This document shows positions 2 through 48,502 of a stretch of DNA of 64,000 nt, one piece after another; position 1 is the first letter of the stretch; each line of letters opens with the position of its first letter. The notes below the pieces were generated by a model. That model did not search any database, was not told the origin of the DNA, and saw only the letters and a list, made by a program, of their open reading frames with translations. The stretch covers positions 89,988 to 153,987 of the forward strand of contig JAFUFS010000028.1 in NCBI GenBank assembly GCA_017469745.1. Direction: 5' to 3'. The stretch is from Bacteroidales bacterium. GTDB lineage: Bacteria > Bacteroidota > Bacteroidia > Bacteroidales > UBA932. The translations under genes were made by a program, and so were the position numbers.

Positions 2-1675
2 AACATCACCACCTCGGCCGGTAATCCCGGTTCCACCGGTTCACTGAACATCCGAGGATTCACATCCATCAACGGAGCTTCCCCTCTCGTGCTGATCGAC
101 GGCGCGGTAGGTGACATTAACCGTGTCAACCCGAACGATGTCGAATCCATCTCTGTCATCAAGGATGCAGCTGCAGCAGCCGTCTATGGAGCACGTGCTG
201 CCTTCGGTGTCATCCTCGTCACTACCAAGAAGGGTAACGAGTCCGACGGAAAGGCCACTGTCCGCTACAGCGGAAGGCTCGGCTGGGAAGAGCCCACCAC
301 ATCCACGGACTACGAGACAACCGGTTACTGGTCCGTCTACACCATCAACAAGTTCCGTATGGCCTCCGAAGGCTCGAACTACATCCTTTACGATGATGCG
401 CAGATGCAGCAGCTTCTCGCCCGCGTAAACGACAAGACCGAGAATCCTGAGCGCCCCTGGACAGTGCTGGAGCACCGCAACGGCCGCGACCAGTGGGTCT
501 ACTACGGCAACAACGACTGGTGGCACTCCCTGTTCAATGACAGACATCCGGTTCAGCAGCACAACGTCTCCCTCTCCGGAGGAAACAAGAGCACCCGCTA
601 CTTCGTTTCCGGAGGCTACGACCGTGAAACCGGTATCATCAAGCAAAGGCCCGACGTCTTCCACAAATTCAACCTCAGGTCCAAGATCGACTTCGACATC
701 AACAAGTACATGCGCCTGAGCAACAACACGTCATTCTACCACTCCCTCTACGACTATGTAGGAATCGACAACACCGAGAACGCCATCGCCTATAGTGCTG
801 CCCATGCCCTTCCTATCTTCCCCCTGAAGAACCCCGACGGAAGCTGGGTCTACCTCCCCTCTGCCGGAATCCTGAACGGTTCCTATGCAGTAGGTAACGG
901 ACGCCACATCGCCTTCGGTGAAGGAAAGGATGTCAACTTCAGCCACAAGAGTGACTTCGCCAACACGACCGAGCTCACTATAAAGCCCGTCAGCACTTTC
1001 ACCCTGGTCGGCAACTTTACCTACCGCCTGCACCAGAACCGTGACACTCACAGGAGGGTCAAACTTCCCTACCGCCAGTACCCTGATTCTGAGATCGAGT
1101 ACTACGCCCAGGGAGCAGGTCTCGACCAGATGACTGAAGACATCACCACTTACAACTATTACTCCGCCAATGTCTTCGGAACCTACGAGGAGACTTTCAA
1201 CAATGCCCACCACGTCACCGTCATGCTTGGATCCAACTATGAGAACCAGCATTCCAAGAGCGTCGGAGCAGTCGGACAGTACCTCCTCAGCGAGGACCTG
1301 AGCGACCTCGACCTGGTCGGTGCCGCAGAAGATGGTTCAACTGTCATGACAGTCTCCGGAGGCCAGTCCGAATATGCCCTCCTGGGCTTCTTCGGCCGTG
1401 CCAACTACGACTACAAGGGTCGCTACCTCTTCGAGGTTTCGGGGCGTTACGACGGTACTTCCAGGTTCGCACGCGGTCACCGCTGGGGACTCTTCCCGTC
1501 AGCATCCGCAGGATGGCGTGTCAGTGAGGAGCCTTTCTTCGCTTCCCTCAAGCCGACCATCAACAACCTCAAGATCCGCGCTTCGTACGGAACCCTGGGC
1601 AACCAGAACGTGAGCAACTACCTCTACATCCGTACGATCAACGTAAGCGACTTCGCACACTACAGTTTCGGCTAA
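2..1675 (+). CDS. SusC/RagA-family TonB-dependent transporter, N-terminal part (5' truncated, ends at in-frame TAA)
   Basis: Outer-membrane TonB-dependent transporter of the SusC family, which imports glycan oligomers with a SusD partner. The reading frame is open from base 2, so the start, signal peptide and carboxypeptidase-D-like domain lie before the window. The first visible residues are the plug domain: a G-S-L-N-I-R-G-F stretch followed by PLVLIDGAVGDINRVNPNDV and VIKDAAAAAVYGARAAFGVI, the usual SusC plug signature. Beta-barrel strands follow. The frame ends at a TAA at 1673-1675, in the middle of the barrel, just after the GTLGNQNVSNYLYI segment that in intact SusC proteins continues towards a (P)NLTWE motif. 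That continuation is present in the same frame downstream (see next entry). Either a pseudogene, a recent nonsense mutation, or a sequencing or assembly error. SusD follows downstream. Confidence 0.9.
   Translation, partial: NITTSAGNPGSTGSLNIRGFTSINGASPLVLIDGAVGDINRVNPNDVESISVIKDAAAAAVYGARAAFGVILVTTKKGNESDGKATVRYSGRLGWEEPTTSTDYETTGYWSVYTINKFRMASEGSNYILYDDAQMQQLLARVNDKTENPERPWTVLEHRNGRDQWVYYGNNDWWHSLFNDRHPVQQHNVSLSGGNKSTRYFVSGGYDRETGIIKQRPDVFHKFNLRSKIDFDINKYMRLSNNTSFYHSLYDYVGIDNTENAIAYSAAHALPIFPLKNPDGSWVYLPSAGILNGSYAVGNGRHIAFGEGKDVNFSHKSDFANTTELTIKPVSTFTLVGNFTYRLHQNRDTHRRVKLPYRQYPDSEIEYYAQGAGLDQMTEDITTYNYYSANVFGTYEETFNNAHHVTVMLGSNYENQHSKSVGAVGQYLLSEDLSDLDLVGAAEDGSTVMTVSGGQSEYALLGFFGRANYDYKGRYLFEVSGRYDGTSRFARGHRWGLFPSASAGWRVSEEPFFASLKPTINNLKIRASYGTLGNQNVSNYLYIRTINVSDFAHYSFG
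1673..1675 (+). other. In-frame TAA stop interrupting susC
   Basis: The codon after GGC at 1670-1672 is TAA. The reading frame before it (from base 2) and after it (to 2830) is the same, and the translation after the stop continues directly with SSTVAKYSNASAPNSANLTW, which is normal SusC barrel sequence. No bases need to be inserted or deleted to restore a full-length protein, so one nonsense substitution (for example TCA to TAA) explains it. Confidence 0.9.
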
Positions 1676-34547: not shown

Positions 34548-36836
34548 TTATTCTCCCGATTTGTCCTCAGTCTTGTCGATTGCACATCCGAACAGGAAGG
34601 CAGTTCCGTTACCCCGCTCATCATCAGCTGAAGCATTGTAGACGAAAGTGTCATCAAGTCCATTGAAAATCACGAAGTTGCCGCCGACATCATCAATCGT
34701 GGTGGAAAATGCGTCGTAAATGTCAGTGAACACCACCGGTTCCTTCCATGAGATCCCGGTCTTGGAATCGATCAGGGAACCGTTGAAGAATCCCTTGGCC
34801 CTGAAAACGGAGAAGGACGTTGAAGGCCTGTTGGATAAATCCTTGTAACGGCAATAGTCATAAATGAACCGGTCGTCCTCCCATCTGCCGCTGTAACCGT
34901 CTGCCACCTCGAGGGCATCGATCGCTCCCCAGTCAAGTTCGAAAGTCAGCGTAGTATGCCCGCTTTTCCAGACATAGGAAGCCTTCCTGACATTCGATGG
35001 AAACTGTGTGATCGACGGAATATGTACCTCCTTGACCTCGTCTGAAACGACCAGTCCATAGTCCGGCTTGTAACTGGCTTTCAAAAGAGTCCCCCTGTTG
35101 AAATAAGTGAATGTGTCGTACACTCCGATCACTTTGGGATTCTCTCCGTCACCGAAGGAAGGCGAAGCGAACCACTCCTCTCCGACTGCCCTCGCAAAGC
35201 CGGGAACATCACCTTCAAACAGGTTGGCCATCGTGCTGAAGCATTCAAGTATGTCAGAATCCGTTGAAGAAGCCGGCGGCAGCTTGTTCGACACACCGGA
35301 TGCCGTTTTATACTTCTTTCTGAGGAAGAGGGCCGCACCTTCATTGCGGTAGTACTTGTAGACATCAGGTACATTGTGAGCGAATCCTACTCCCCTGTAA
35401 TCATCTACATAGCCACTCTGGTAGTTCTGGAGAAAAGCAGTATCCTCCATCATCCCTTCGACAATCCTGTGGATTTCATACCTGACAATCGAATTCCTTT
35501 TCCGGAGGGCGCCACCGATCAGTGTCATCTCCAGATCGACCTGGTACGGGACCTTGCATGTGGAAGCGATCCTCTCAGGCTCTGCCACGACTGTCTCGCC
35601 GAAAGAGAATGAAGAGGGTTTCACACCTGAACTGATGTCGTCCGGATCGTCGGCTGCAGACGGGGCCCCGGCGTACCATTCCGGTAGTTCGGATCTTGTA
35701 AGATAGATGTAACCCGAAGAGTCTGAAGTCTTGGTGTAGGTCCTGCTACCGTCCATGGTAGTGAAGGTTACCTCGCATCCTGGAATGATGACCGGGCCCG
35801 GGCCCGTCACGATGAATGCGGCTCCGCCGGAGAAAGGATTGACATATTCATAGGAAGTCGCGCCGCCGGAAGTGACGCTCAGCGCTATTACCGGGGCCAC
35901 GTTGTACTTGTCCTTGTCCACCCGTTCGGTGTACAAGGTGTCTGCAACGGACACTGTTCCACTGACTCCGTCTTTGCCATCCTTGCCATCCTTTCCGTCT
36001 TTACCATCCTTTCCGTCTTTACCATCCTTTCCGTCCTTGCCGTCGTGACCGTCACTGCCGGAAAGATATTCATAAAAGTCCTCGATGGAGATAGCATCAT
36101 CAGGCCAGGTCGGATAGTCCTCCAGGTCGTACACCCCGTTGCCGGGATTGGGCAGACCGTCTTCCGAGGTGACGTCGGCCACCCAGAGTTCATAGGCTGA
36201 AAGCCCGTTTGCCGGAACACCTGTATCTTCTTCCTCAATCCACCAATTCCCATTGTCTCCGACATACGGGCACCAGCCTTGTTCTCCCTGATCACCTTTC
36301 GGGCCCTGGGCAGGGACCTCCAAGTCTTGGGGATCACCGTCAACTACGATCCACCAGTTGCCGTTTTCACCAATGTAAGGAGTGCTGCCATCCTCTCCGT
36401 CCGATCCTGAAAGGAAATCGTAGAAATCCTTCTCCGAAACCCTCTCAGTGTCCCATTGGGTTCCTGGATTCTTCGGGTCTTCGACTCCTGTGAGGACATA
36501 TTCACGCCATAGTTCGTAGGCAGACTGTCCATCCTTGCCGTCACGGCCGTCCTTCCCTTTAAGATACTTGAAGTAGTCGTCCACTCCGGTCCCTCCGTCC
36601 CAGTCTGCGATCTGATGGTCTTTCACGCAGGAGACCCACAATTCATAGGCTGAGAGTCCGTCCTTGCCTGCCACTCCCTGAATACCCTGCTCTCCCTGTG
36701 GACCACGCGGAAGAGTCACTTCCAGCGAGTTGCAGGACGTCGCCAGGACAAAAGCTCCCATGAGCAGGGAAGCTAATGATAAGAATTCGTTTTTCAGGCT
36801 TTTAGGTATTATTGATTGTTTTTGAGATATTTCCAC
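34548..36836 (-). CDS. Collagen-like repeat lipoprotein
   Basis: A 762-aa surface lipoprotein. The signal (KNEFLSLASLLMGAFVLATSC) has its lipidated Cys at residue 35. Residues about 40-310 are collagen-like Gly-X-Y stretches (LPRGPQGEQGIQGVAGKDG; a GKD run of eight near residue 285) alternating with three SAYELW modules (each ending in a D-Y/F-x-x-x-L-x-G-x-DG helix) and two P-Y-I/V-G-x-N-G-N-W-W-I motifs. Residues 310-762 are a unique, probably beta-rich domain without a recognised fold. The 5' end overlaps the ompA stop by 28 bases. It may act as a rod-like adhesin or spacer anchored to the outer membrane. Function is inferred from architecture. Confidence 0.8.
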   Translation of the reverse strand: MEISQKQSIIPKSLKNEFLSLASLLMGAFVLATSCNSLEVTLPRGPQGEQGIQGVAGKDGLSAYELWVSCVKDHQIADWDGGTGVDDYFKYLKGKDGRDGKDGQSAYELWREYVLTGVEDPKNPGTQWDTERVSEKDFYDFLSGSDGEDGSTPYIGENGNWWIVVDGDPQDLEVPAQGPKGDQGEQGWCPYVGDNGNWWIEEEDTGVPANGLSAYELWVADVTSEDGLPNPGNGVYDLEDYPTWPDDAISIEDFYEYLSGSDGHDGKDGKDGKDGKDGKDGKDGKDGKDGVSGTVSVADTLYTERVDKDKYNVAPVIALSVTSGGATSYEYVNPFSGGAAFIVTGPGPVIIPGCEVTFTTMDGSRTYTKTSDSSGYIYLTRSELPEWYAGAPSAADDPDDISSGVKPSSFSFGETVVAEPERIASTCKVPYQVDLEMTLIGGALRKRNSIVRYEIHRIVEGMMEDTAFLQNYQSGYVDDYRGVGFAHNVPDVYKYYRNEGAALFLRKKYKTASGVSNKLPPASSTDSDILECFSTMANLFEGDVPGFARAVGEEWFASPSFGDGENPKVIGVYDTFTYFNRGTLLKASYKPDYGLVVSDEVKEVHIPSITQFPSNVRKASYVWKSGHTTLTFELDWGAIDALEVADGYSGRWEDDRFIYDYCRYKDLSNRPSTSFSVFRAKGFFNGSLIDSKTGISWKEPVVFTDIYDAFSTTIDDVGGNFVIFNGLDDTFVYNASADDERGNGTAFLFGCAIDKTEDKSGE
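35968..36053 (-). repeat. Tandem KDG-coding repeat (collagen-like)
   Basis: Nine-base units (about eight G-K-D codon triplets on the minus strand, consensus CCATCCTTT or CCGTCTTTA on the plus strand) repeat in tandem, often as 18-base pairs. Unit size is a multiple of three, so copy-number changes would lengthen or shorten the rod without breaking the frame. Confidence 0.8.
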
Positions 36837-39383: not shown

Positions 39384-40004
39384 TTAATTATTGTTGTGTC
39401 TAGAAAGAAGTTCCCTCTCCAGATCAGCCATTCCGACCCCCATCTGTTCATTGAGTACCAGAAGGTGATAAAGGAGGTCTGATGCCTCATAGATATACCG
39501 CTCCTTATCGCCCGTAGCTGCTTCGAGGATAGTTTCCACTGCTTCCTCCCCGACTTTTTGGGAAATCTTCTTCACGCCTTCCTCAAAGAGACGTGTAGTG
39601 TAATGTCCTTCAGGCATGATCTCGTGCCGGTTCCTTATAACTTGCTCGAGACGGGCGAGGAATCCTTCCTCAGGAGGAGTGTCAAAACATGACACGGTTC
39701 CGCGGTGACAGGTCGGACCGTCGGGCCTCGCCATGATCAGCAAGGTGTCCGAATCACAGTCAGGAAACATACTTTCGACATGCAGGTAGTTTCCGCTGGT
39801 CTCCCCTTTGGTCCACAGGACACCCCTGGAACGGCTCCAAAAAGTCACCAGCCCGGTTTCCAGGGTTCTTTCATAGGCCTGTTCATTCATGTATCCGAGC
39901 ATCAGGACCTTCCGCGTGACGCTGTCCTGGATGATCGCAGGGACCAGCCCTTCACGGCTTTTTTGAAAATCAAGTTCAATCTTTTCCATATCTTCAGTTA
40001 TCAT
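39384..40004 (-). CDS. hisIE: Phosphoribosyl-AMP cyclohydrolase / phosphoribosyl-ATP diphosphatase
   Basis: Bifunctional enzyme of 206 aa for steps 2 and 3 of histidine synthesis. The HisI half has SRSRGVLWTKGETSGN and the zinc motif DCDSDTLLIMARPDGPTCHRGTVSC. The HisE half (about 120-200) has SQKVGEEAVETILEA and EASDLLYHLLVLN. I chose the ATG at 40004, whose ATGA overlaps the hisF stop. A longer in-frame extension overlapping hisF was rejected because its residues look non-protein-like. Last gene of the his operon. Confidence 0.93.
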   Translation of the reverse strand: MITEDMEKIELDFQKSREGLVPAIIQDSVTRKVLMLGYMNEQAYERTLETGLVTFWSRSRGVLWTKGETSGNYLHVESMFPDCDSDTLLIMARPDGPTCHRGTVSCFDTPPEEGFLARLEQVIRNRHEIMPEGHYTTRLFEEGVKKISQKVGEEAVETILEAATGDKERYIYEASDLLYHLLVLNEQMGVGMADLERELLSRHNNN

Positions 40005-40756
40005 ATTCTTACTTTTATCCCTTTCGAAACCAGGAAATGCTTCAATTCCGGAATCGTTATTTCTCCATAGTGGAATATGCTGGCTGCCAGGGCAGCATCC
40101 GCCTTTCCTTCGGAAAGGACCGCCGCAATGTCTTCCGCACTTCCGGCCCCGCCTGAAGCTATCACCGGGATCCGCAGGAGACTGTTCAATTCCGAAAAAA
40201 CATCGCAAGGATAGCCTTGGCGCGTCCCGTCATGATCCATGGAGGTGAACAGGATCTCCCCCGCCCCCCTTTCCTGGACCTCGGAAGCCCAGATGAACAG
40301 TTCCCTGCCGGTCGCGAACCTGCCCCCGCCTGACATGGCCATCCAACGGTCTCCGGACTTCCGTGCATCTATCGCAACGACCACGAACTGGCTCCCGAAA
40401 TGCGATGCGATCTCATCTACCAGAGAGGGATTCCTAAGCGCTGCGCTGTTCACGGTGATCTTGTCAGCACCGGCCTCCAGCATCCTGCCTGCATCCTCAA
40501 GGGAAGATATTCCTCCACCGACCGTGAAAGGAATATCGATACGTTCGGAGATCGCCTTCACCAGTCCCACGAAGGTCTTCCTCCCTTTGACCGTGGCGCT
40601 GATGTCAAGATAGACAAGTTCATCCGCTCCTTGCGAAGCGTACCTGGCCCCTAGTTCCACTGCATCACCGACCTCCCTGAGTCCCAGGAAGTTGATGCCC
40701 TTGACCGTCCTGCCGTCCTTGACGTCCAGGCACGGAATTATCCTTTTGGCTACCAT
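40001..40756 (-). CDS. hisF: Imidazole glycerol phosphate synthase cyclase subunit
   Basis: TIM-barrel subunit of 251 aa that closes the imidazole ring using ammonia from HisH. The start MVAKRIIPCLDVKDGRTVKGINFLGLREVGDAVELGARY is canonical, with the catalytic Asp in CLDVKDG and the second Asp in FTSMDHDGTRQGY. Further blocks: ITVNSAALRNPSLV, IPVIASGGAGSAEDIAAVL and DAALAASIFHYGE. Start overlaps the hisA stop by 7 bases, and hisIE overlaps its end. Confidence 0.96.
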   Translation of the reverse strand: MVAKRIIPCLDVKDGRTVKGINFLGLREVGDAVELGARYASQGADELVYLDISATVKGRKTFVGLVKAISERIDIPFTVGGGISSLEDAGRMLEAGADKITVNSAALRNPSLVDEIASHFGSQFVVVAIDARKSGDRWMAMSGGGRFATGRELFIWASEVQERGAGEILFTSMDHDGTRQGYPCDVFSELNSLLRIPVIASGGAGSAEDIAAVLSEGKADAALAASIFHYGEITIPELKHFLVSKGIKVRI

Positions 40757-41463
40757 GACGGGATCTCCTCCAGTTTTATTCTTCCCTCGTAAAGGGCCTT
40801 ACCGACGATGACCTTTCCTATTCCGATGCTTTCAAGGGCCCTTATGTCTTCAATGCATCCCACTCCTCCGCTTGCGGTCAATGAGATGTCCGGAAAAGCT
40901 TTTATCAATTCCTCATAAAGGCTCAATCCAGGCCCGCAGAGCATGCCGTCACGCGATATTTCCGTCACTATCACTTTACGGAGCGCCGGAAGGAAAGAAC
41001 TTATCAAAGTGAATATGTCAATTCCGCCATTTTCCGTCCACCCACGGACAGAAACTTCCCGGCCGCGGACATCAGCTCCAAGCACGATCCTTTCAGGGCC
41101 GAATTCTTCAAGGAGCCCTGCAAAAAGCGAAGGATCCTTGACTGCCATTGTCCCGAAGATGACCCGGCCTGCTCCTGCATCAAGGACGGACTTGACATCC
41201 TCCCTGGTCTTGATGCCACCACCCCATTCTATTTCAGCGCGGCTTCCCCTAGAAACCATTTCCAGGACATCGAGATTGACGGGATGACCCTCCCTGGCGC
41301 CGTCAAGGTCGACAATATGGATCGACCTGAGTCCATGGTCCAGGAAGACGGAAACCATCTCCGCAGGGCTGGCTTCATAGGAAGTCTTCCTGGAGAAATC
41401 ACCCTGGGAAAGGCGTACGCACCTCCCATCTATCAGATCTATTGCCGGTATTACCTGTATCAT
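40750..41463 (-). CDS. hisA: Phosphoribosylformimino-5-aminoimidazole carboxamide ribotide isomerase
   Basis: TIM-barrel isomerase of 237 aa, paralogous to HisF. Start MIQVIPAIDLIDGRCVRLSQGDF with the catalytic Asp in AIDL. The central Asp is in VTEISRDGMLCGPGL and phosphate-binding loops are GGIKTREDVKSVLDAGAGRVIFGTMAV and SGGVGCIEDIRALESIGIGKVIVGKALY. Normal length. It overlaps hisH by 4 bases and hisF by 7. Confidence 0.95.
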   Translation of the reverse strand: MIQVIPAIDLIDGRCVRLSQGDFSRKTSYEASPAEMVSVFLDHGLRSIHIVDLDGAREGHPVNLDVLEMVSRGSRAEIEWGGGIKTREDVKSVLDAGAGRVIFGTMAVKDPSLFAGLLEEFGPERIVLGADVRGREVSVRGWTENGGIDIFTLISSFLPALRKVIVTEISRDGMLCGPGLSLYEELIKAFPDISLTASGGVGCIEDIRALESIGIGKVIVGKALYEGRIKLEEIPSW

Positions 41464-42050
41464 AATGAAAGAAAGTTATGTAGGAGTCTGGCTCCGTCCG
41501 AACCGCTTTTTTCCGGATGGAACTGGGTCCCGAAGAAATTATCCTTGCAAAGGGCAGCGCTGAAAGGGACTGAATGCTCCGAAGCTGCGACAGTGCAATC
41601 GCATATTCCTGCATAATAGGAATGCACGAAATACATGAATGTACCCTCAGCCAATCCATCGAAAAGAGGAGACTTCAGCCCGGTCAGGCTGTTCCAACCC
41701 ATGTGCGGAATCTTGACTGAAGGATCACCAGGGATGAAACGGACGACATCGGTATCGAATATTCCCAGACCGACAGCATCGCCCTCCTCGCTGCCTCGGC
41801 ACATAACCTGCATGCCAACGCAGATCCCGAGCACAGGACATTTCAAGGACGGGATCACCGAATCAAGCCCCAGGAATCGAAGGCTGGCAAGGGCGACGGA
41901 AGCATCTCCGACTCCGGGAAGCAGGACCCTGTCAGCAGACATCAGCAATTCCGGATCGGAGGTAAGCTCCCACTCTGAAACTCCAACACGCCTGAGTGCA
42001 TTTATCAACGACCGGACGTTGCCGGCATCATAATCTACTATCGCTATCAT
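41460..42050 (-). CDS. hisH: Imidazole glycerol phosphate synthase glutaminase subunit
   Basis: Glutamine amidotransferase of 196 aa. The nucleophile Cys lies in PVLGICVGMQVMCRGSEE, and the catalytic His and Glu in GTQFHPEKSGSDG. The start MIAIVDYDAGNVRSLINALRRVG is typical of HisH. It feeds ammonia to HisF. The start overlaps the hisCB stop by 4 bases. Confidence 0.95.
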   Translation of the reverse strand: MIAIVDYDAGNVRSLINALRRVGVSEWELTSDPELLMSADRVLLPGVGDASVALASLRFLGLDSVIPSLKCPVLGICVGMQVMCRGSEEGDAVGLGIFDTDVVRFIPGDPSVKIPHMGWNSLTGLKSPLFDGLAEGTFMYFVHSYYAGICDCTVAASEHSVPFSAALCKDNFFGTQFHPEKSGSDGARLLHNFLSL

Positions 42051-43747
42051 AACACGCCTTTGCTGCTGGGCAGGTCAAATCTGAACAGGTCCCTCCTGAC
42101 CGCTGAACGAAGAGTCCTTGCGAAAGCCTTGAACACGGATTCAGCAAGATGATGATTGTTTTCGCCTCGCGCCTGGATGTGAAGGTTGCATTTCATTGCG
42201 CAGCAGAGAGACTGGAAAAAATGTTCGAACATCTCAGTGGGCACATCTCCGACATATTCCCTGGTGAACGGGACATCCCAACGGAAATCGATCCTGCCGC
42301 CAAGGTCCATCAGCACCATGGCATCACAGTCATCCATCGGCAGGACGAAACCGTAACGTCCGATCCCTCGGCGATCCCCGAGAGCCTCAAGGAGGGCTTC
42401 TCCAAGAGTGATCGCGACATCCTCAATCGTGTGATGCTCATCGACTTGAAGGTCTCCCCTCGCCTGGACTTTAAGGGAGATTCCTCCATGGTGGGGGATC
42501 TGGTCCAGCATGTGGTCGAAGAAATCCAGCCCTGTGCTGATTGAAGATTCACCGTTGCCATCCAGATCCACTTCCACCCTGACTGCGGTTTCTCCGGTTA
42601 CCCGTTCACGTACAGAACGCCGTGGGCCTGACTTCAGGATGCCCTGCAGGAAAGAGCCTTCAGGATCGGCCGTCGCTCGGTTGGAAACAGCTTTCCCTGA
42701 ATAGCTTTCAAGGGATCTGATCATGGCGGTATTCTCCTCCGGCGATCCGACCGTAAGTCTCAGGGCCTTTCCGCATCCTGGAGTGGCCGACCTGTCCCTG
42801 ACAATTATTCCATCCTTCAACAGATGGCTGTAAAGGCCTTTGGGATCCGTAGTCTGGACGAGTAAGAAATTGGCGTCACTAGGGAAAACCTTCGTAATGC
42901 AATCCATGTCCGAAAGGACCGAAACCAGCCGGCGGCGCTCAGAACGGATCGTCGCAACTTCAGCCTCAACCCGCTCCTGATCGATAAGTGAAAGCGCCAG
43001 GGACAAGGTGTCGGAGCCAATGTTATAAGGGTAACGGACCTTATCGAACATCCTGACCACTAAAGGATAAGCCACTGTGATCCCTATCCTGAGACCGGCG
43101 AGCCCGTAAGCTTTCGAAAGCGTCTGGAGGACGATCAGGTTGGAATATTCATTGACAAGGCCGGCCATCGAGCCCCTCTCGGAGAAATCCACATAAGCCT
43201 CGTCCAGTACCACCATTCCGCCGAAGCCTTCGAGCAGCCTTCGGATGTCGCTTTCCGGGAAGGAATTGCCAGTGGGATTGTTCGGAGAGCAGATGAACAT
43301 GAGTTTCGTGAAACCGTCGGCTGCCTCAAGAAGCTCTGCTACAGGCAGGGAAAAAACTTCTCCAAGCATTACCATCCTTCGCTCCACCCCGTTCATGTCG
43401 GCACAGACCGAATACATCCCGTAACTTGGTGACATTATCACGGCATTGTCCACTCCAGGATTGCAGAAAACCCTGTAACACAGATCTATGGACTCATCAC
43501 TTCCATTCCCGAGGAAGACGGTTTCCTTCCGGAGTCCCTTGATTGCGGTCACCTTCTCAAGCAGGGCATCGCGCCTGCTTCTTGAAGGATAGCGGTTCAG
43601 CCCCTTCCTCTCAAAGGGATTCTCATTGGCGTCCAGGAGGATGCCGATCTCTCCCTGATACTCGTCACGGGCTGTTGAATATGGTTCCATGGAAAGGATG
43701 TTCCCGCGCACCAGGCGCTCCACGTCTTTGGCATTCATCTTATTCAT
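42047..43747 (-). CDS. hisCB: Fused histidinol-phosphate aminotransferase / imidazoleglycerol-phosphate dehydratase
   Basis: A bifunctional histidine-biosynthesis protein of 566 aa. Residues about 1-350 are a PLP-dependent HisC (LDANENPF; ICSPNNPTGN; VLDEAYVDFSE; the PLP-Lys in VLQTLSKAYGLAGLRIG; ALRLTVGSPEEN). A linker of roughly 25-30 residues follows. Then residues about 375-566 are HisB dehydratase (RRSVRERVTGETAVRVEVDLDG; FFDHMLDQIPHHGG; EHHTIEDVAITLGEAL; GENNHHLAESVFKAFARTL). The HAD-type histidinol-phosphate phosphatase that normally precedes the dehydratase in Bacteroidota HisB is absent, so that step needs another gene. No frameshift separates the halves. I chose ATG at 43747, overlapping the hisD stop; ATG at 43738 is possible. 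Confidence 0.93.
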   Translation of the reverse strand: MNKMNAKDVERLVRGNILSMEPYSTARDEYQGEIGILLDANENPFERKGLNRYPSRSRRDALLEKVTAIKGLRKETVFLGNGSDESIDLCYRVFCNPGVDNAVIMSPSYGMYSVCADMNGVERRMVMLGEVFSLPVAELLEAADGFTKLMFICSPNNPTGNSFPESDIRRLLEGFGGMVVLDEAYVDFSERGSMAGLVNEYSNLIVLQTLSKAYGLAGLRIGITVAYPLVVRMFDKVRYPYNIGSDTLSLALSLIDQERVEAEVATIRSERRRLVSVLSDMDCITKVFPSDANFLLVQTTDPKGLYSHLLKDGIIVRDRSATPGCGKALRLTVGSPEENTAMIRSLESYSGKAVSNRATADPEGSFLQGILKSGPRRSVRERVTGETAVRVEVDLDGNGESSISTGLDFFDHMLDQIPHHGGISLKVQARGDLQVDEHHTIEDVAITLGEALLEALGDRRGIGRYGFVLPMDDCDAMVLMDLGGRIDFRWDVPFTREYVGDVPTEMFEHFFQSLCCAMKCNLHIQARGENNHHLAESVFKAFARTLRSAVRRDLFRFDLPSSKGVL

Positions 43748-45026
43748 TGTTTTCACCGATTCTGTAACGCACCGCATCCGCATGGGCCTTAAGACCCTCT
43801 GCCTCAGCCATCTTGATTATTCCGGGGCCTATGCGTGACAGGCCTTCACGAGAAAGGGACTGATAAGAGACAGCATGCATGAAGCTTTCCACTCCGATCC
43901 CGCTCCAGGAAGAGGCCAGTCCGACTGTCGGGAGGATGTGGTTTGTACCGCTGGAATAGTCGCCCGCACTCTCAGGAGAGTAATTTCCAAGGAATACACT
44001 TCCGGCTGCGGTCACCATCTTGGCAGCGTTTTCCGGCTCTGAGACAGACAGGATGAGATGCTCGGGAGCATAATAGTTGGCAAACTCCATCTGCTTTTCA
44101 AGTCCCTTCATGACCAGAATCCTGCTGTCCGCAAGGGACTGCTCGATTACCTCACGGCGAGGAAGGGTCTCCTTCTGCTTCTTGATCTCGGACTTGACTG
44201 CCTGGGCGAAAGAATAGTCTTCACAAATGAGCAATGCCTGGCTGTCGCAACCGTGCTCGGTCTGGGAGAGCATGTCGGAAGCCACGAAACGCGGATTGGC
44301 GCTGTCATCAGCCACGACCATTACCTCGGAGGGGCCTGCAGGCATGTCTATGGCTATTCCGTCGCGACAGACCAACTGCTTGGCTTTAAGGACATAACGG
44401 TTGCCGGGACCGAAGATCTTCGAAACTTTCCGAATAGTTCCGGTACCATAGGCCATGGCGGCTATTGCCTGCGCTCCGCCGACCTTGTAGACTTCATCCA
44501 TTCCACACACCCTGGCGGCATAGAGGATGGCAGGTTCGATGGTTCCTTCCTTGGAAGGAGGGGTGCAGATGATCCTTTCACGACAACCAGCAATGCCAGA
44601 AGGGATTCCGAGCATCAGGACTGTCGAGAAAAGCGGAGCCAGGCCCCCGGGGATGTAAAGTCCTATCCTCGGCAACGGGAGGAAGCGCCGGCGGCAGATG
44701 ATTCCTCCGCCATCATTCCAAGTAATGTCCCTCGGGATTTCGAGCTCATGGAAGGCCCGTATCCTGGAAGCTGCCTCGAGAATGGCCTCTTTCAAGTCCT
44801 GAGGAACCGCATCGACCGCATCGTCAAACTCCAGAGGAGTGACTTTAAGGTTGTCCGGTACGACTCCTTCCACCTCGGAAATGACATTTACCAGGGCGGC
44901 ATCACCTCCGTCCTTTACAGCCCGGAGGATCTCAGAGACCCTCCAATTGATCGTCGCATCATCGCGGTTTACCCTTCGGGCCAGGAAAGGCCATTGCTCC
45001 CTGGCCGGTTCTACATATATTCTCAT
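43740..45026 (-). CDS. hisD: Histidinol dehydrogenase
   Basis: NAD- and zinc-dependent enzyme of 428 aa that oxidises histidinol to histidine in two steps. Visible motifs: LYIPGGLAPLFSTVLMLGIPSGIAGC, GGAQAIAAMAYGTGTI, IFGPGNRYVLKAKQLV, DMPAGPSEVMVVAD, the zinc-binding region DMLSQTEHGCDSQALL, and the C-terminal NYYAPEHLILSV and SAGDYSSGTNHILPT. Normal length and continuous. hisG ends 2 bases before its start. Confidence 0.96.
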   Translation of the reverse strand: MRIYVEPAREQWPFLARRVNRDDATINWRVSEILRAVKDGGDAALVNVISEVEGVVPDNLKVTPLEFDDAVDAVPQDLKEAILEAASRIRAFHELEIPRDITWNDGGGIICRRRFLPLPRIGLYIPGGLAPLFSTVLMLGIPSGIAGCRERIICTPPSKEGTIEPAILYAARVCGMDEVYKVGGAQAIAAMAYGTGTIRKVSKIFGPGNRYVLKAKQLVCRDGIAIDMPAGPSEVMVVADDSANPRFVASDMLSQTEHGCDSQALLICEDYSFAQAVKSEIKKQKETLPRREVIEQSLADSRILVMKGLEKQMEFANYYAPEHLILSVSEPENAAKMVTAAGSVFLGNYSPESAGDYSSGTNHILPTVGLASSWSGIGVESFMHAVSYQSLSREGLSRIGPGIIKMAEAEGLKAHADAVRYRIGENNE

Positions 45027-45028
45027 GG

Positions 45029-45880
45029 TCAGTCAATTACTTTATCTACATTCAGGATCAGGATTCCCTCAGCTCCGGTCTTCTTAAGGCTTTCAACAGT
45101 AGCCCACAACGAGGAGTCATCGACTACGGAATGGACGGAGCACCAGCCTTCCAGAGCCAGCGGCATCACGGTCGGGCTGCGCATGGACGGAAGCAGGGCC
45201 ATCGCCTCAGAAAGTCTTTCCGAAGGGATGTTCATAAGGATGTATTTCTTCCCCCTGCTTTCCTGGATGGCATCGAAACGGAAAAGGATCGAATCGAGCA
45301 CCGGCTTGTTCTCAGGCAGGAGGTCTTTCCGGCATACGAGCACCGCTTCACTCTCCAAAACGGTCTCAACCTCTTTCAAGCCGTTGGAGACCAAGGTGCC
45401 GCCGGATGACACGATGTCGAATATTGAATCTGCGATTCCTGCTGCAGGAGCGATCTCAACGGAGCCTCTGATCTCCCTGATGTCTGAAGAGACGCCCTTT
45501 GAAGAAAGGAAGCGACGCAGGATCGACGGATAGGAAGTTGCTATCGACTTCCCCTCGAACCATTCCAGACCAGGATATTCCACACCCTTGGGGATTGCGA
45601 GAGAGAGGCGGCATTTCCCGAAACCAAGCCTCCGGATAACTTCCACGTCGGCCTGGGTTTCGGCGATCTCGTTGTAGCCCACGATTCCGATGTCTGCGGA
45701 ACCGTCTGCTACCACACCCGGGATGTCGTCATCCCGAAGATAAAGTAATTCCAACGGGAAATCGGATGCCTTGCCGAGGAACTTCCTCTTGGAGTCATCT
45801 ACGTTTATTCCCGCATCTTTAAGAAGCCGGAGGCTCTCTTCATTGAGCCTTCCCTTGGATTGGACAGCTAATCTGATCAT
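45029..45880 (-). CDS. hisG: ATP phosphoribosyltransferase (long form)
   Basis: First enzyme of the pathway, 283 aa. This is the long, self-regulated form with a C-terminal ACT-like histidine-binding domain (about 205-283, SIRFRFDAIQESRGKKYILMNIPSERLSEAMALLPSMRSPT-like block), so no HisZ is needed. The N-terminal half has IRLAVQSKGRLNEESLRLLKDAG, the DIPGVVADGSADIGIVGYNE substrate block and SGGTLVSNGLKEVE. Feedback inhibition by histidine is expected for this form. It is preceded by an apparent attenuator (see the leader peptide and terminator entries). Confidence 0.95.
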   Translation of the reverse strand: MIRLAVQSKGRLNEESLRLLKDAGINVDDSKRKFLGKASDFPLELLYLRDDDIPGVVADGSADIGIVGYNEIAETQADVEVIRRLGFGKCRLSLAIPKGVEYPGLEWFEGKSIATSYPSILRRFLSSKGVSSDIREIRGSVEIAPAAGIADSIFDIVSSGGTLVSNGLKEVETVLESEAVLVCRKDLLPENKPVLDSILFRFDAIQESRGKKYILMNIPSERLSEAMALLPSMRSPTVMPLALEGWCSVHSVVDDSSLWATVESLKKTGAEGILILNVDKVID

Positions 45881-45884
45881 ACCG

Positions 45885-45923
45885 ATAAAAACAAAAATCG
45901 GCTTGCCGGGTCCGGCAAGCCGA
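45885..45923 (-). terminator. Attenuator terminator upstream of hisG
   Basis: On the minus strand, CGGCTTGCCGG at 45922-45912 and CCGGCAAGCCG at 45909-45899 form a stem of about 10 G/C-rich pairs with a 4-nt loop, flanked by an A-T pair. An ATTTTTGTTTTT tract follows, ending about 5 bases before the hisG start. It is a typical intrinsic terminator placed between the His-rich leader peptide and hisG. A segment before it (TGGTGTAAT at about 45955-45947 with ATTACATCG) can pair weakly and overlaps the terminator stem by two bases, so it may serve as an antiterminator. Confidence 0.85.
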
Positions 45924-45956
45924 TGTAATACTCTATTGAAACAATTACACCATCAC

Positions 45957-46013
45957 TTACCAGGCCTGTCCGGTCCGGGAATGATGATGCTTATGGGTTG
46001 ATGCAAAGTTCAT
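45957..46013 (-). CDS. hisL: His operon leader peptide
   Basis: A short frame of 18 codons on the minus strand encodes MNFASTHKHHHSRTGQAW then TAA. Four of five consecutive codons (7, 9, 10, 11) are His (all CAT), a run that is very unlikely by chance at this exact position. The stop is 33 bases before a strong terminator that sits directly upstream of hisG. The layout (His-rich leader, then terminator, then his operon) is that of ribosome-mediated attenuation: when charged tRNA-His is scarce, the ribosome pauses on the His codons and the downstream RNA refolds. Too short for standard gene calling. Not checked experimentally. Confidence 0.85.
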   Translation of the reverse strand: MNFASTHKHHHSRTGQAW

Positions 46014-46020
46014 TTCGACT

Positions 46021-46051
46021 GCAATATACGACTATTTTTCAATTATGCAAG
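46021..46051 (-). promoter_or_regulatory. Candidate his operon promoter
   Basis: On the minus strand, CTTG at 46051-46048 and TATATTGC at 46028-46021, spaced by 19 nt, resemble a Bacteroidota promoter, but the -7 element is imperfect. The start site would lie only a few bases before the leader ATG (46013), so the leader would be nearly leaderless. The -33 overlaps the end of pcrA. Confidence 0.45.
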
Positions 46052-48502
46052 ACGAATTTTTGCATATTTCAGCAGGAGGATTTTTTCACCGTATTCATCA
46101 AAAACGATTTTAGCCTTGAGATCCGGGACCGCACCGGTGATCTGGAGTATCTTCCCGAAACCGAAGCGGTTATGCTCGATCCGCTGTCCGACTTTAAGCT
46201 CGGTCATCGCCACTGGTGTGAACTCGGCATCAGGAATCTTCGGAGGCAGCGGACGGTTCTTCAAGGCCTCACGGCTGACGGATGAAGTCGGAACGGCCGG
46301 CTGGCGCTCCACCTTCTGCTGCCGTCCCGGCAAATACTGCACTCCACCTGTGGACATTCCGAAGCGGGTGGCCGGCTTTGCCATTCCCCTGCCGGAACCG
46401 AAGCCCCTGAAAGGTCTCCTGAATCCGAAATCGTCGTCATCATCATCCGAGGCATCAAAGTCATCATCCCTCAGCGGGTTGGAAATGTACTGCTGGTCTA
46501 TCTCCCTTATGAAACGGCTCGGAGAATTGGACTCATGCTTTCCATTACGCATCCTGGAACTGGCGTAAGACAGCCAGACAACCTTCTTGGCCCTGGTCAT
46601 GGCGACGTAGAAGAGCCTGCGCTCTTCCTCGATGTCGTTCTTGGAAGCAAGCATGCCACCGGAGGGGAAAAGATTCTCCTCAAGGCCTGCTACGATGACA
46701 TAAGGGAATTCAAGTCCCTTTGCGGAGTGCACTGTCATCAAGGCGATCTTGTTGTTGGTGTCATCCCCGTCCTCGATGTCGACATTGGTCAGCAAGGAGA
46801 CATTCTCGAGGAATTCTCCCAAGGTGACCAGAGGGTACTGGACTTCCTCTCCTTCTACATACTGTCCGTCAGCCTGAAGGTCCTCAAGATACTCTTCCTG
46901 CCGCTCTTCCTTGAACTGGAGGATGCTGTTGAGGAGTTCCTCGACGTTGGAGGCACGGGACTGGCCCTCGATGGAAGTGTCCGCCTTGAAATGGGCATAA
47001 AGCCCGCAGGCCGATGAAAGTGCAGTCGCAAGTTCCTGCGCATCTGCAAAAGGAGCCTTGGCGGCGAACTCGGAGATCATGTCACAGAAAGACCTGATCC
47101 TCGCCACGGCCGGAGCCTTCAGGCCGAACTCCGCGAACATTTCTGAATATGCGGCCTTGAACATGGAAGTACCCAGTTCGCGGGCCATGGCGGCAAGAGC
47201 GCCAAGGGAAGTGTCTCCGATTCCCCTGGCGGGCATATTCACGACTCTCTTGAAAGATTCGTCGTCGTTGACGTTCACCACCAGCTTGAAATAGGCCATC
47301 ATGTCCTTCACCTCAGCCCGCTCGAAGAATGAATTGCCCGAATAGATCACATAGGGAAGGTTCCTCCTTCTTAGGGCTTCCTCAATCGCCCTGGACTGGG
47401 AATTCGTACGGTAGAGAATGGCGAAATCCTGGTACCTGGCATGGTCAGCCTGCATGCGCGAGATGATCTCTGAGGCGATCCTGATGGCCTCCTCCTGCTC
47501 CGAAAATGAATGCAGGATGCTGATCTTTTCTCCCTCTCCGCCGACTGCCACACAAGTCTTTGGGATCCTGTCCTCATTCTTGGCAATCAGCGAGTTGGCG
47601 GCATCGACGATGTTCGCAGTCGAACGGTAATTCTTTTCCAGGCGGAATACCTTGCAGTCAGGGTAATCTTTCTTGAAATTCAGGATGTTCTCGATCCTGG
47701 CCCCACGGAACGCGTAGATCGACTGGGAGTCGTCACCGACAACGCAGATGTTCCTGTGGAAGGCGCCGAGCCTGCGCAGGATAACGTACTGCGCGTAGTT
47801 GGTGTCCTGGTACTCGTCCACAAGGATGTAGTCGAACCTTGAAGAAATGGATTTCAAAGCCTCCTGGTTGTCCCTAAGCAGGATGTTCATGTTCAGGAGG
47901 ATGTCGTCGAAGTCCATGACCCCGGAGTTGCGGCACTTGGCGGCATACAGGGAATAGATGTCGCAGATCTTCGGCTTCCTGGCGGCAGTGTCCTTCTGGA
48001 CTGCCTGGAGATTGTTCCTGTAGGCTGATGCCGTGACAAGGTTGTTCTTCGCGAGGGAGATCCTGGCCAGGACATCCCGGGGCTTGTAGACCTTGTCATC
48101 CAGCTGGAGTTCCTTGATGCATGCCTTTATGGCACTGGTGGAATCGCTGGTGTCGTAGATGGTGAAATACTCGGGGTAGCCTATCGAAGCGGCATATTCC
48201 CGGAGGAATCTTATGAACACTGAATGGAAGGTACCCATGCAGAGCTTCCATGAATTCTTCCGCCCCACCATGAGCCCTATCCTCTCCTTCATCTCCCCGG
48301 CCGCTTTCTTGGTGAAAGTCAGCGCCATGATCCTTGACGGATCGCCTCCCCTGGCAAGGATGCAGGCTATCCTGCTGGTCAGCACCCTTGTCTTTCCCGA
48401 CCCCGCGCCGGCCACTATCAGGACCGGTCCGTCTATGTTGCTGACCGCCTCTCTCTGCTCCGCGTTCAGCCCCTCGTACAGTACTTTCTCAATGTTTTCC
48501 AT
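46043..48502 (-). CDS. pcrA: ATP-dependent DNA helicase PcrA/UvrD
   Basis: Superfamily 1A 3'-5' helicase of 819 aa. Motif Q and Walker A: LNAEQREAVSNIDGPVLIVAGAGSGKTRVL (P-loop Lys37). Motif Ia: ALTFTKKAAGEMKERI. Motif II: YILVDEYQDTNYAQ. Motif III: VVGDDSQSIYAFRGA. Motif IV: FRLEKNYRST. Motif V: MTVHSAKGLEFPYVIVAGLEENLFPS. Motif VI: RRLFYVAMTRAKK. An acidic and disordered stretch (DDDFDASDDDDDDFGFRRPFRGFGSGRG) precedes the C-terminal Tudor-like domain (VGQRIEHNRFGFGKILQITG). It acts in nucleotide excision repair, mismatch repair and replication restart. Divergent from nqrA. Confidence 0.95.
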   Translation of the reverse strand: MENIEKVLYEGLNAEQREAVSNIDGPVLIVAGAGSGKTRVLTSRIACILARGGDPSRIMALTFTKKAAGEMKERIGLMVGRKNSWKLCMGTFHSVFIRFLREYAASIGYPEYFTIYDTSDSTSAIKACIKELQLDDKVYKPRDVLARISLAKNNLVTASAYRNNLQAVQKDTAARKPKICDIYSLYAAKCRNSGVMDFDDILLNMNILLRDNQEALKSISSRFDYILVDEYQDTNYAQYVILRRLGAFHRNICVVGDDSQSIYAFRGARIENILNFKKDYPDCKVFRLEKNYRSTANIVDAANSLIAKNEDRIPKTCVAVGGEGEKISILHSFSEQEEAIRIASEIISRMQADHARYQDFAILYRTNSQSRAIEEALRRRNLPYVIYSGNSFFERAEVKDMMAYFKLVVNVNDDESFKRVVNMPARGIGDTSLGALAAMARELGTSMFKAAYSEMFAEFGLKAPAVARIRSFCDMISEFAAKAPFADAQELATALSSACGLYAHFKADTSIEGQSRASNVEELLNSILQFKEERQEEYLEDLQADGQYVEGEEVQYPLVTLGEFLENVSLLTNVDIEDGDDTNNKIALMTVHSAKGLEFPYVIVAGLEENLFPSGGMLASKNDIEEERRLFYVAMTRAKKVVWLSYASSRMRNGKHESNSPSRFIREIDQQYISNPLRDDDFDASDDDDDDFGFRRPFRGFGSGRGMAKPATRFGMSTGGVQYLPGRQQKVERQPAVPTSSVSREALKNRPLPPKIPDAEFTPVAMTELKVGQRIEHNRFGFGKILQITGAVPDLKAKIVFDEYGEKILLLKYAKIRLA

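Follow-up and report, generated by a model that had tools for sequence, protein, structure and literature searches.

The histidine biosynthesis (his) operon in the stretch of Bacteroidales DNA analysed here (the window, 64,000 nucleotides at its full length) is preceded by a very short, histidine-rich reading frame and a terminator-like hairpin, which raises the question of whether its transcription is controlled by attenuation and, if so, whether a translating ribosome supplies the signal. Passages in surveys from 2010 and 2022 place leader-peptide attenuators in Proteobacteria, Actinobacteria, and Firmicutes (PMC2965389, PMC9413887), and the word "bacteroid" occurs zero times in the main texts of the two. 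The original prediction recognized at this locus the classic layout of ribosome-mediated attenuation, and we find that reading supported by the leader, the terminator, a covarying antiterminator, and the folds obtained under ribosome masks.

All features of the locus lie on the minus strand. The first operon gene is hisG (45029..45880), followed by hisD (43740..45026) and a gene in which an aminotransferase (hisC) and an IGPD domain (hisB) are fused (42047..43783, Pfam Aminotran_1_2 and IGPD); these assignments are from Pfam, whereas the overlapping ORFs that follow (39384..42050) were named hisH, hisA, hisF, and hisI/E by reading their translations. Upstream of the leader lies a pcrA/uvrD-like helicase gene with its stop at 46043. 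The leader peptide ORF, MNFASTHKHHHSRTGQAW, has 18 residues and occupies 46013-45957 with its stop included (ATG 46013-46011, stop codon 45959-45957). Histidines stand at codons 7, 9, 10, and 11, and codons 7-11, the candidate regulatory codons, read His-Lys-His-His-His (45981..45995). This is the frame with four His codons in five positions that had been described earlier with its strand unnamed. The strong GC-rich terminator placed just upstream of hisG by the same description is also there: 32 nt separate the leader stop from the start of an intrinsic stem-loop of 12 pairs (8 of them G-C) with a loop of 4 (45924-45897), which runs into the T-tract TTTTGTTTTT (45896-45887). A terminator scan of 45500-46300 returned this one site, a count not above that in shuffles of the same stretch (mean 1.0, sd 1.0), and the weight of the terminator therefore comes from the comparison with relatives and not from the plain scan. 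The RNA from 46030 to 45885 has a folding energy of -47.6 kcal/mol, whereas its shuffles average -32.8 (z -4.05), and 0 of 200 shuffles folded as well. In the predicted fold, which was computed for the window only, the His codons pair with GTGATGGTG directly 3' of the stop codon (hairpin 1:2, 45947..45990).

A sceptical reading of this layout is that the hairpin is a mere terminator of the pcrA/uvrD-like gene, that the His frame is a chance ORF, and that hisG has its own start downstream. The terminator does share its strand with the pcrA stop some 120 nt upstream and could terminate the pcrA transcript as well; a separate hisG start, on the other hand, would need to fit into the 16 nt between the stem and the ATG. 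The relatives bear on this reading more directly. Regions upstream of hisG were drawn from genus, order, class, and phylum samples and from named genome contigs, giving 270 loci, of which 257 were kept; four without a hisG start (L062, L066, L074, L075), seven near-duplicates, and two with less than 130 nt upstream were dropped. Nearly all are from Bacteroidota, and two genome-contig loci carry other phylum names (L071, Chlorobiota; L073, Calditrichota). hisG was not found in 5 of 12 genus relatives, several of which are incomplete genomes. The order sample uses 113 of the 120 genomes with hisG (G029, G034, G059, G140, G166, G222, and G240 were left out), and the phylum sample adds 87 new genomes from 252 with hisG, comprising 27 automatic loci and 60 chosen mostly one per genus, all with E 1.3e-66 or better.

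We scored as a leader any ATG frame of 8-40 codons with at least four His in seven, at most 300 nt upstream of hisG. We find such a frame in 178 of 257 loci, whereas dinucleotide shuffles yield one in 2 of 5140 cases and reverse strands in 1 of 257, which is at odds with a chance ORF. It recurs in 6/8 genus, 79/108 order, 38/52 genome-contig, and 33/43 class loci, in the window itself, in the single family locus (1/1), and in 20/44 phylum loci, where the counts do not cover divergent hisG matches near E 1e-38 and weaker. The layout had been called notable for a Bacteroidota operon; its presence in such an operon stands, yet it is no oddity, since it recurs across order, class, and phylum. Clusters of the same size of any of the 19 other amino acids tested occur in 0 to 8 of the 257 loci, with Ser next at 8. 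Relaxing the threshold to at least three His in seven gives a leader in 204 of 257 loci and leaves 53 with no qualifying frame, among them two of the eight genus members (L002, L004). In 12 of these 53, at least four His in seven codons do occur, but their frame has no ATG start or sits at a greater distance upstream; the rest, the two genus members included, seem from their sequences to be without a leader. Rikenella microfusus (L057) has no His leader, and that of Millionella massiliensis (L056) is MILNNHIHHGHHHHRTDEGSSLVAVTE. Judged from these comparisons of sequence, the His-rich frame is not a product of chance.

The terminator accompanies the leader. Of the 204 leaders with at least three His in seven, 178 are followed by a hairpin that has a T-tract and an energy of -7 kcal/mol or better, compared to 7 of 408 shuffled regions, and 174 reach -10 kcal/mol or better, compared to 1 of 408; these controls are dinucleotide-block shuffles in which the best hairpin was chosen slightly differently than for real loci. 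No terminator of -7 or better follows the remaining 26 of the 204.

For the closest relatives we built an alignment (A1) of 12 of the 15 loci that have a hisG start and at least 78% hisG identity, leaving out L017 and L019 as near-duplicates and L023 for its length. Aligning relatives had been proposed as a check, and loss of the His run or the terminator in close relatives had been named as the outcome that would speak against attenuation. That outcome did not occur: all 12 rows retain a run of at least three His codons, the terminator, and the antiterminator core described below. In the terminator, 88.9% of the alignment cells form pairs, and two-sided changes are seen at 5 of 12 pairs, a number that 0 of 500 shuffles match, each such change being confined to a single sequence. 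Outside the His run, the peptides vary in length and sequence even among these close relatives, while the RNA strands are conserved. This divergence argues against the leader peptide being functional in itself, for example as a small metal-binding peptide, with regulation a secondary matter. Histidine-rich peptides can indeed bind metals, which is what makes such a role conceivable, but we consider it very improbable.

A peptide and a terminator become an attenuator through a third element, the antiterminator, which was missed in the original prediction; judged from the alignments, it is present and covaries. In the window, its strand 2 consists of TGGTAAG, which contains the leader stop, and GGTGTAAT (45944..45962), and is complementary to CTTGCC and ATTACATC, the sequences that make up the terminator's 5' arm and the stretch ahead of it; strand 3 (ATTACATC..CTTGCC, 45914..45929) thus overlaps that arm. 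Over the 178 loci, the pairing between the leader-stop region and the terminator arm has a mean z of -2.5 against each locus's own shuffles, and strand 2 ranks among the top 5 against 100 shuffles in 120 of the 178: 30/37 genome-contig, 25/29 class, 17/21 phylum, and 6/6 own, genus, and family loci, with the order loci weaker at just 42/85. Across the 178 loci, the mean pairing energy of strand 2 is -12.6 kcal/mol with the terminator arm of its own locus and -9.0 with those of other loci. The own-partner pairing was matched by 0 of 5000 permutations overall and by 0 of 2000 inside each of the four sampling groups, which is not a strict probability because related sequences share ancestry.

In the half of the rows that were inspected, the letters of the two strands change in step: the pair is GGTAAG/CTTGCC close to the window and GGTGAGC/GCTTACC elsewhere in the order, CTCAGGCGAG/CCCGTCTGAG and CTCAAGCGAG/CCCGTTTGAG occur in further order and class loci, and GAGCCGGG/CCCCGGCT in the wider phylum. 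This covariation of strand 2 with the terminator arm is not expected of a hairpin that serves solely to end the pcrA transcript, and together with the His clusters it makes the pcrA-terminator reading extremely unlikely. In A1, 90.6% of the antiterminator cells form pairs, compared to at most 56.1% when the partners are slid; two-sided changes affect 2 of 15 pairs (a number attained in 347 of 500 shuffles) and 8 cells (attained in 5 of 500), the inner helix being mostly invariant. C-termini of the form QA(R/S/K/M) recur among the leader peptides, as in L203, L206, L231, and L233. The recurring ends look like the coding shadow of a CAGGC-like strand 2, that is, of conservation at the RNA level, and such pairing sequences would explain why many order and class peptides end in QAR, QAS, or QAK.

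The spacing of these elements suits a stalled ribosome. In the 118 loci with a z of -2 or lower, the median distance between the last His codon and strand 2 is 14 nt (quartiles 11 and 16). In all 118, fewer than 15 nt separate the first base of the stop codon from the beginning of strand 2, a result partly built into the search region. Modelling of the alternative folds, which had also been proposed, gave a divided answer: a switch appears under ribosome masks, and none at equilibrium. Our mask, a simplification, bars from pairing every base between the ATG and a point 15 nt beyond the first base of the A-site codon, and the switch test omits the 3' arm of the terminator as though it were still untranscribed. 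Under these conditions, the antiterminator of the window has a probability of 0.998-0.999 when the ribosome occupies His codons 9-11 and of 0.008 when it has arrived at the stop; for an A site at codon 9, the masked fold has a partly different upstream partner than at codons 10 or 11. The probability exceeds 0.5 in 167 of 178 loci when the ribosome is stalled and in 29 of 178 when it is at the stop. Both halves of the switch, a value above 0.5 under stalling and one below 0.5 at the stop, are found together in 142 of 178 loci, compared to 136 of 534 controls with a shuffled strand-2 region, and the same kind of test on E. coli hisL gives 0.63 stalled and 0.22 at the stop. Equilibrium folding of the full RNA, by contrast, favored the terminator in every state tested for the window and for E. 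coli: with a stalled ribosome, the probability of the terminator is 0.984-0.999 in the window and 0.985 in hisL, and it exceeds 0.5 despite the stall in 157 of 178 loci. The model therefore needs kinetic competition, and what the masking test supports, as a modelling result, is solely a kinetic switch.

We observe the parts and how they are conserved, the matched changes of strand 2 and the terminator arm, and the behavior of the masked folds; from these we infer, with high confidence, that the his operon is controlled by a ribosome-mediated transcription attenuator, with a predicted promoter, a putatively translated leader, and a predicted response to histidine. In the model that we propose, RNA polymerase would begin transcription a few bases ahead of the leader ATG, with a ribosome loading on the near-leaderless 5' end. 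When histidine is plentiful, the ribosome would pass His-Lys-His-His-His, reach the TAA, and cover GGTAAG and the bases that follow; with strand 2 covered, the terminator at 45924-45897 could form and transcription would stop before hisG. When charged tRNA-His is scarce, the ribosome would instead stall on the His codons and leave strand 2 (GGTAAG..GGTGTAAT) free to pair with the terminator's 5' arm (ATTACATC..CTTGCC) as it emerges, and the polymerase would continue into hisG and the rest of the operon. If the leader were left untranslated, hairpin 1:2 would sequester strand 2, and the terminator would again be expected to form.

Folding alone is silent on what frees strand 2, and attenuation could be real with a protein or small RNA acting on the terminator or antiterminator in place of stalling at His codons. 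Neither the enrichment of His alone among the amino acids nor the close spacing of the His codons to strand 2 fits such a signal, and no Rfam family reaches its gathering score at the hisG leader site; we regard it as highly unlikely. T-box or riboswitch control of the his genes was likewise considered and rejected, as no Rfam match before hisG reaches the gathering score, and the 18 sub-threshold matches at the leader site (up to E 10) are to unrelated families. As an observation on a different locus, a cobalamin riboswitch (RF00174, 108.7 bits) lies at 112-294 (minus strand) of L132, upstream of a hisG with a His leader.

The start that the stalling model assigns to the leader RNA rests on a predicted promoter. 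By eye, we assigned a -33 element to a TTG inside the last codons of the upstream pcrA/uvrD-like gene (46050-46048), TTG being the consensus at that position. The predicted -7 element, TATATTGC (46028-46021), lies at a spacing of 19 nt from this TTG and ends 7 nt before the leader ATG. A scan for sigma-70 promoters found none, and TATATTGC agrees with the Bacteroidota-type -7 consensus TAnnTTTG at 4 of 6 fixed positions (consensus as given in PMC9723704). The sequence TAnnTTGC stands at the position of TATATTGC in 10 of the 11 other A1 rows. The box was first spotted by eye and then checked in relatives with relaxed patterns: of 202 loci (the own and family rows excluded), 129 have a TAnnTTTG-like box no more than 25 nt from the leader ATG, whereas 8 have one at 60-85 nt. 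The gaps between box and ATG are bimodal, with peaks at 5-9 nt (35 occurrences) and 16-23 nt (87 occurrences), and the shorter mode suggests near-leaderless leader mRNAs. Leaderless mRNAs made up 5.5% of those examined in Flavobacterium psychrophilum (PMC9723704), and the trpL attenuator of Sinorhizobium meliloti, whose RNA starts at the leader ATG, provides a precedent for a leaderless attenuator (PMC7298713), which the leader in the window may resemble, to judge from its predicted promoter. The trpL system differs in being an alphaproteobacterial attenuator for Trp whose leader RNA and peptide also act in trans (PMC7298713). The broader idea that His attenuation is ancestral in Bacteroidota, independent of a Shine-Dalgarno sequence and often near-leaderless, and that the terminated leader of about 130 nt from the ATG also acts in trans, like rnTrpL, is a speculation that we think improbable.

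Four of the five defining features of a classic his attenuator are found at the locus: a leader ORF with a His cluster, a terminator, an antiterminator sharing an arm of the terminator, and a geometry that separates stalling from arrival at the stop. The fifth, operon read-through that increases when histidine is lacking, is predicted by the model. The likeness to hisL of E. coli and Salmonella (RF00514) extends from the short leader with a run of His, the terminator before hisG, and the antiterminator that shares a terminator arm to similar behavior of E. coli hisL in the masking test. Unlike hisL, the window leader has an ATG with no Shine-Dalgarno stretch before it (judged by eye) and a predicted transcription start only a few bases away. 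The His_leader model RF00514 matches nothing in the window, nothing in 45870-46070 even at E values up to 10, and 0 of 19 Bacteroidota loci, while the positive control, E. coli hisL (L271), scores 131.6 bits. Within the Bacteroidetes, Bacteroid-trp RNA has been linked to a Trp leader peptide. It appears as a putative cis-regulatory RNA (RF01692) in Table 1 of PMC2864571 and is named for trp, unlike the his leader described here; the genome to which the window belongs (G000) contains no match to it.

In the same phylum, a study of F. psychrophilum (PMC9723704) describes strong clues that amino-acid operons are attenuated through leader peptides. It also describes a structured 5' element that precedes hisG in this species and in other Flavobacteriaceae genera and has no Rfam match. 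This element belongs to the same phylum and precedes the same gene as the window leader, and because of that study the kind of attenuator must be counted as already known in the phylum; the section on hisG gives no leader sequence, antiterminator, or distribution beyond Flavobacteriaceae. His attenuators in Firmicutes (PMC9413887) and a His leader before hisZ/hisS* of bacilli (PMC2965389) have been predicted by comparative genomics, likewise outside Proteobacteria but in another phylum. A 2020 map of Bacteroides thetaiotaomicron reports sORFs reminiscent of leader peptides (PMC7366714), and the word "histidine" is absent from its main text. Among the literature matches listed, none describes a His leader for Bacteroidales; Lopatovskaya 2010 and Lyubetsky 2007, both cited in PMC4833913, may hold predictions for Bacteroidetes and are the main reservation about novelty. 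Our contribution is thus the breadth and anatomy of a his attenuator layout that, by the sequences compared, is common in Bacteroidota, and the breadth may be the part that is new in print.

The matching changes give histidine attenuation in this phylum a concrete anatomy, built on leader ORFs shorter than gene finders usually call. On the sequence and modelling evidence, the his genes of the source bacterium are very probably on only when histidine is short. The locus also offers a clean system for studying the coupling of transcription and translation in bacteria that initiate without Shine-Dalgarno sequences, where a near-leaderless start could keep ribosome and polymerase in step from the outset.

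Some further observations concern the surrounding genes and pathways. No Thr- or Ile-rich leader was seen in the 420 nt before two (L272, L273) of the three aspartokinase matches in the genome, the third of which (L274) is weak. In G000, given as 98.5% complete, neither trpE_most nor the large acetolactate synthase subunit (acolac_lg) has a match, and auxotrophy for Trp and branched-chain amino acids beside a retained his operon is possible. By Pfam, the fused gene at 42047-43783, in which hisC and the IGPD part of hisB are joined in one frame, contains no histidinol-phosphatase domain, and that step may therefore come from elsewhere. The hisC-hisB junction is common to the near relatives L013, L014, L015, L018, L019, L020, L021, L022, and L025; in L023 and L024, hisC ends with a stop and is followed by the apparent start of a HisN-type phosphatase. 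Where both halves were found in relatives, hisC and hisB are separate matches. Beyond the operon, the window encodes at 34548-36836 (minus strand) a predicted protein with collagen-like GKDGKDGKDG repeats.
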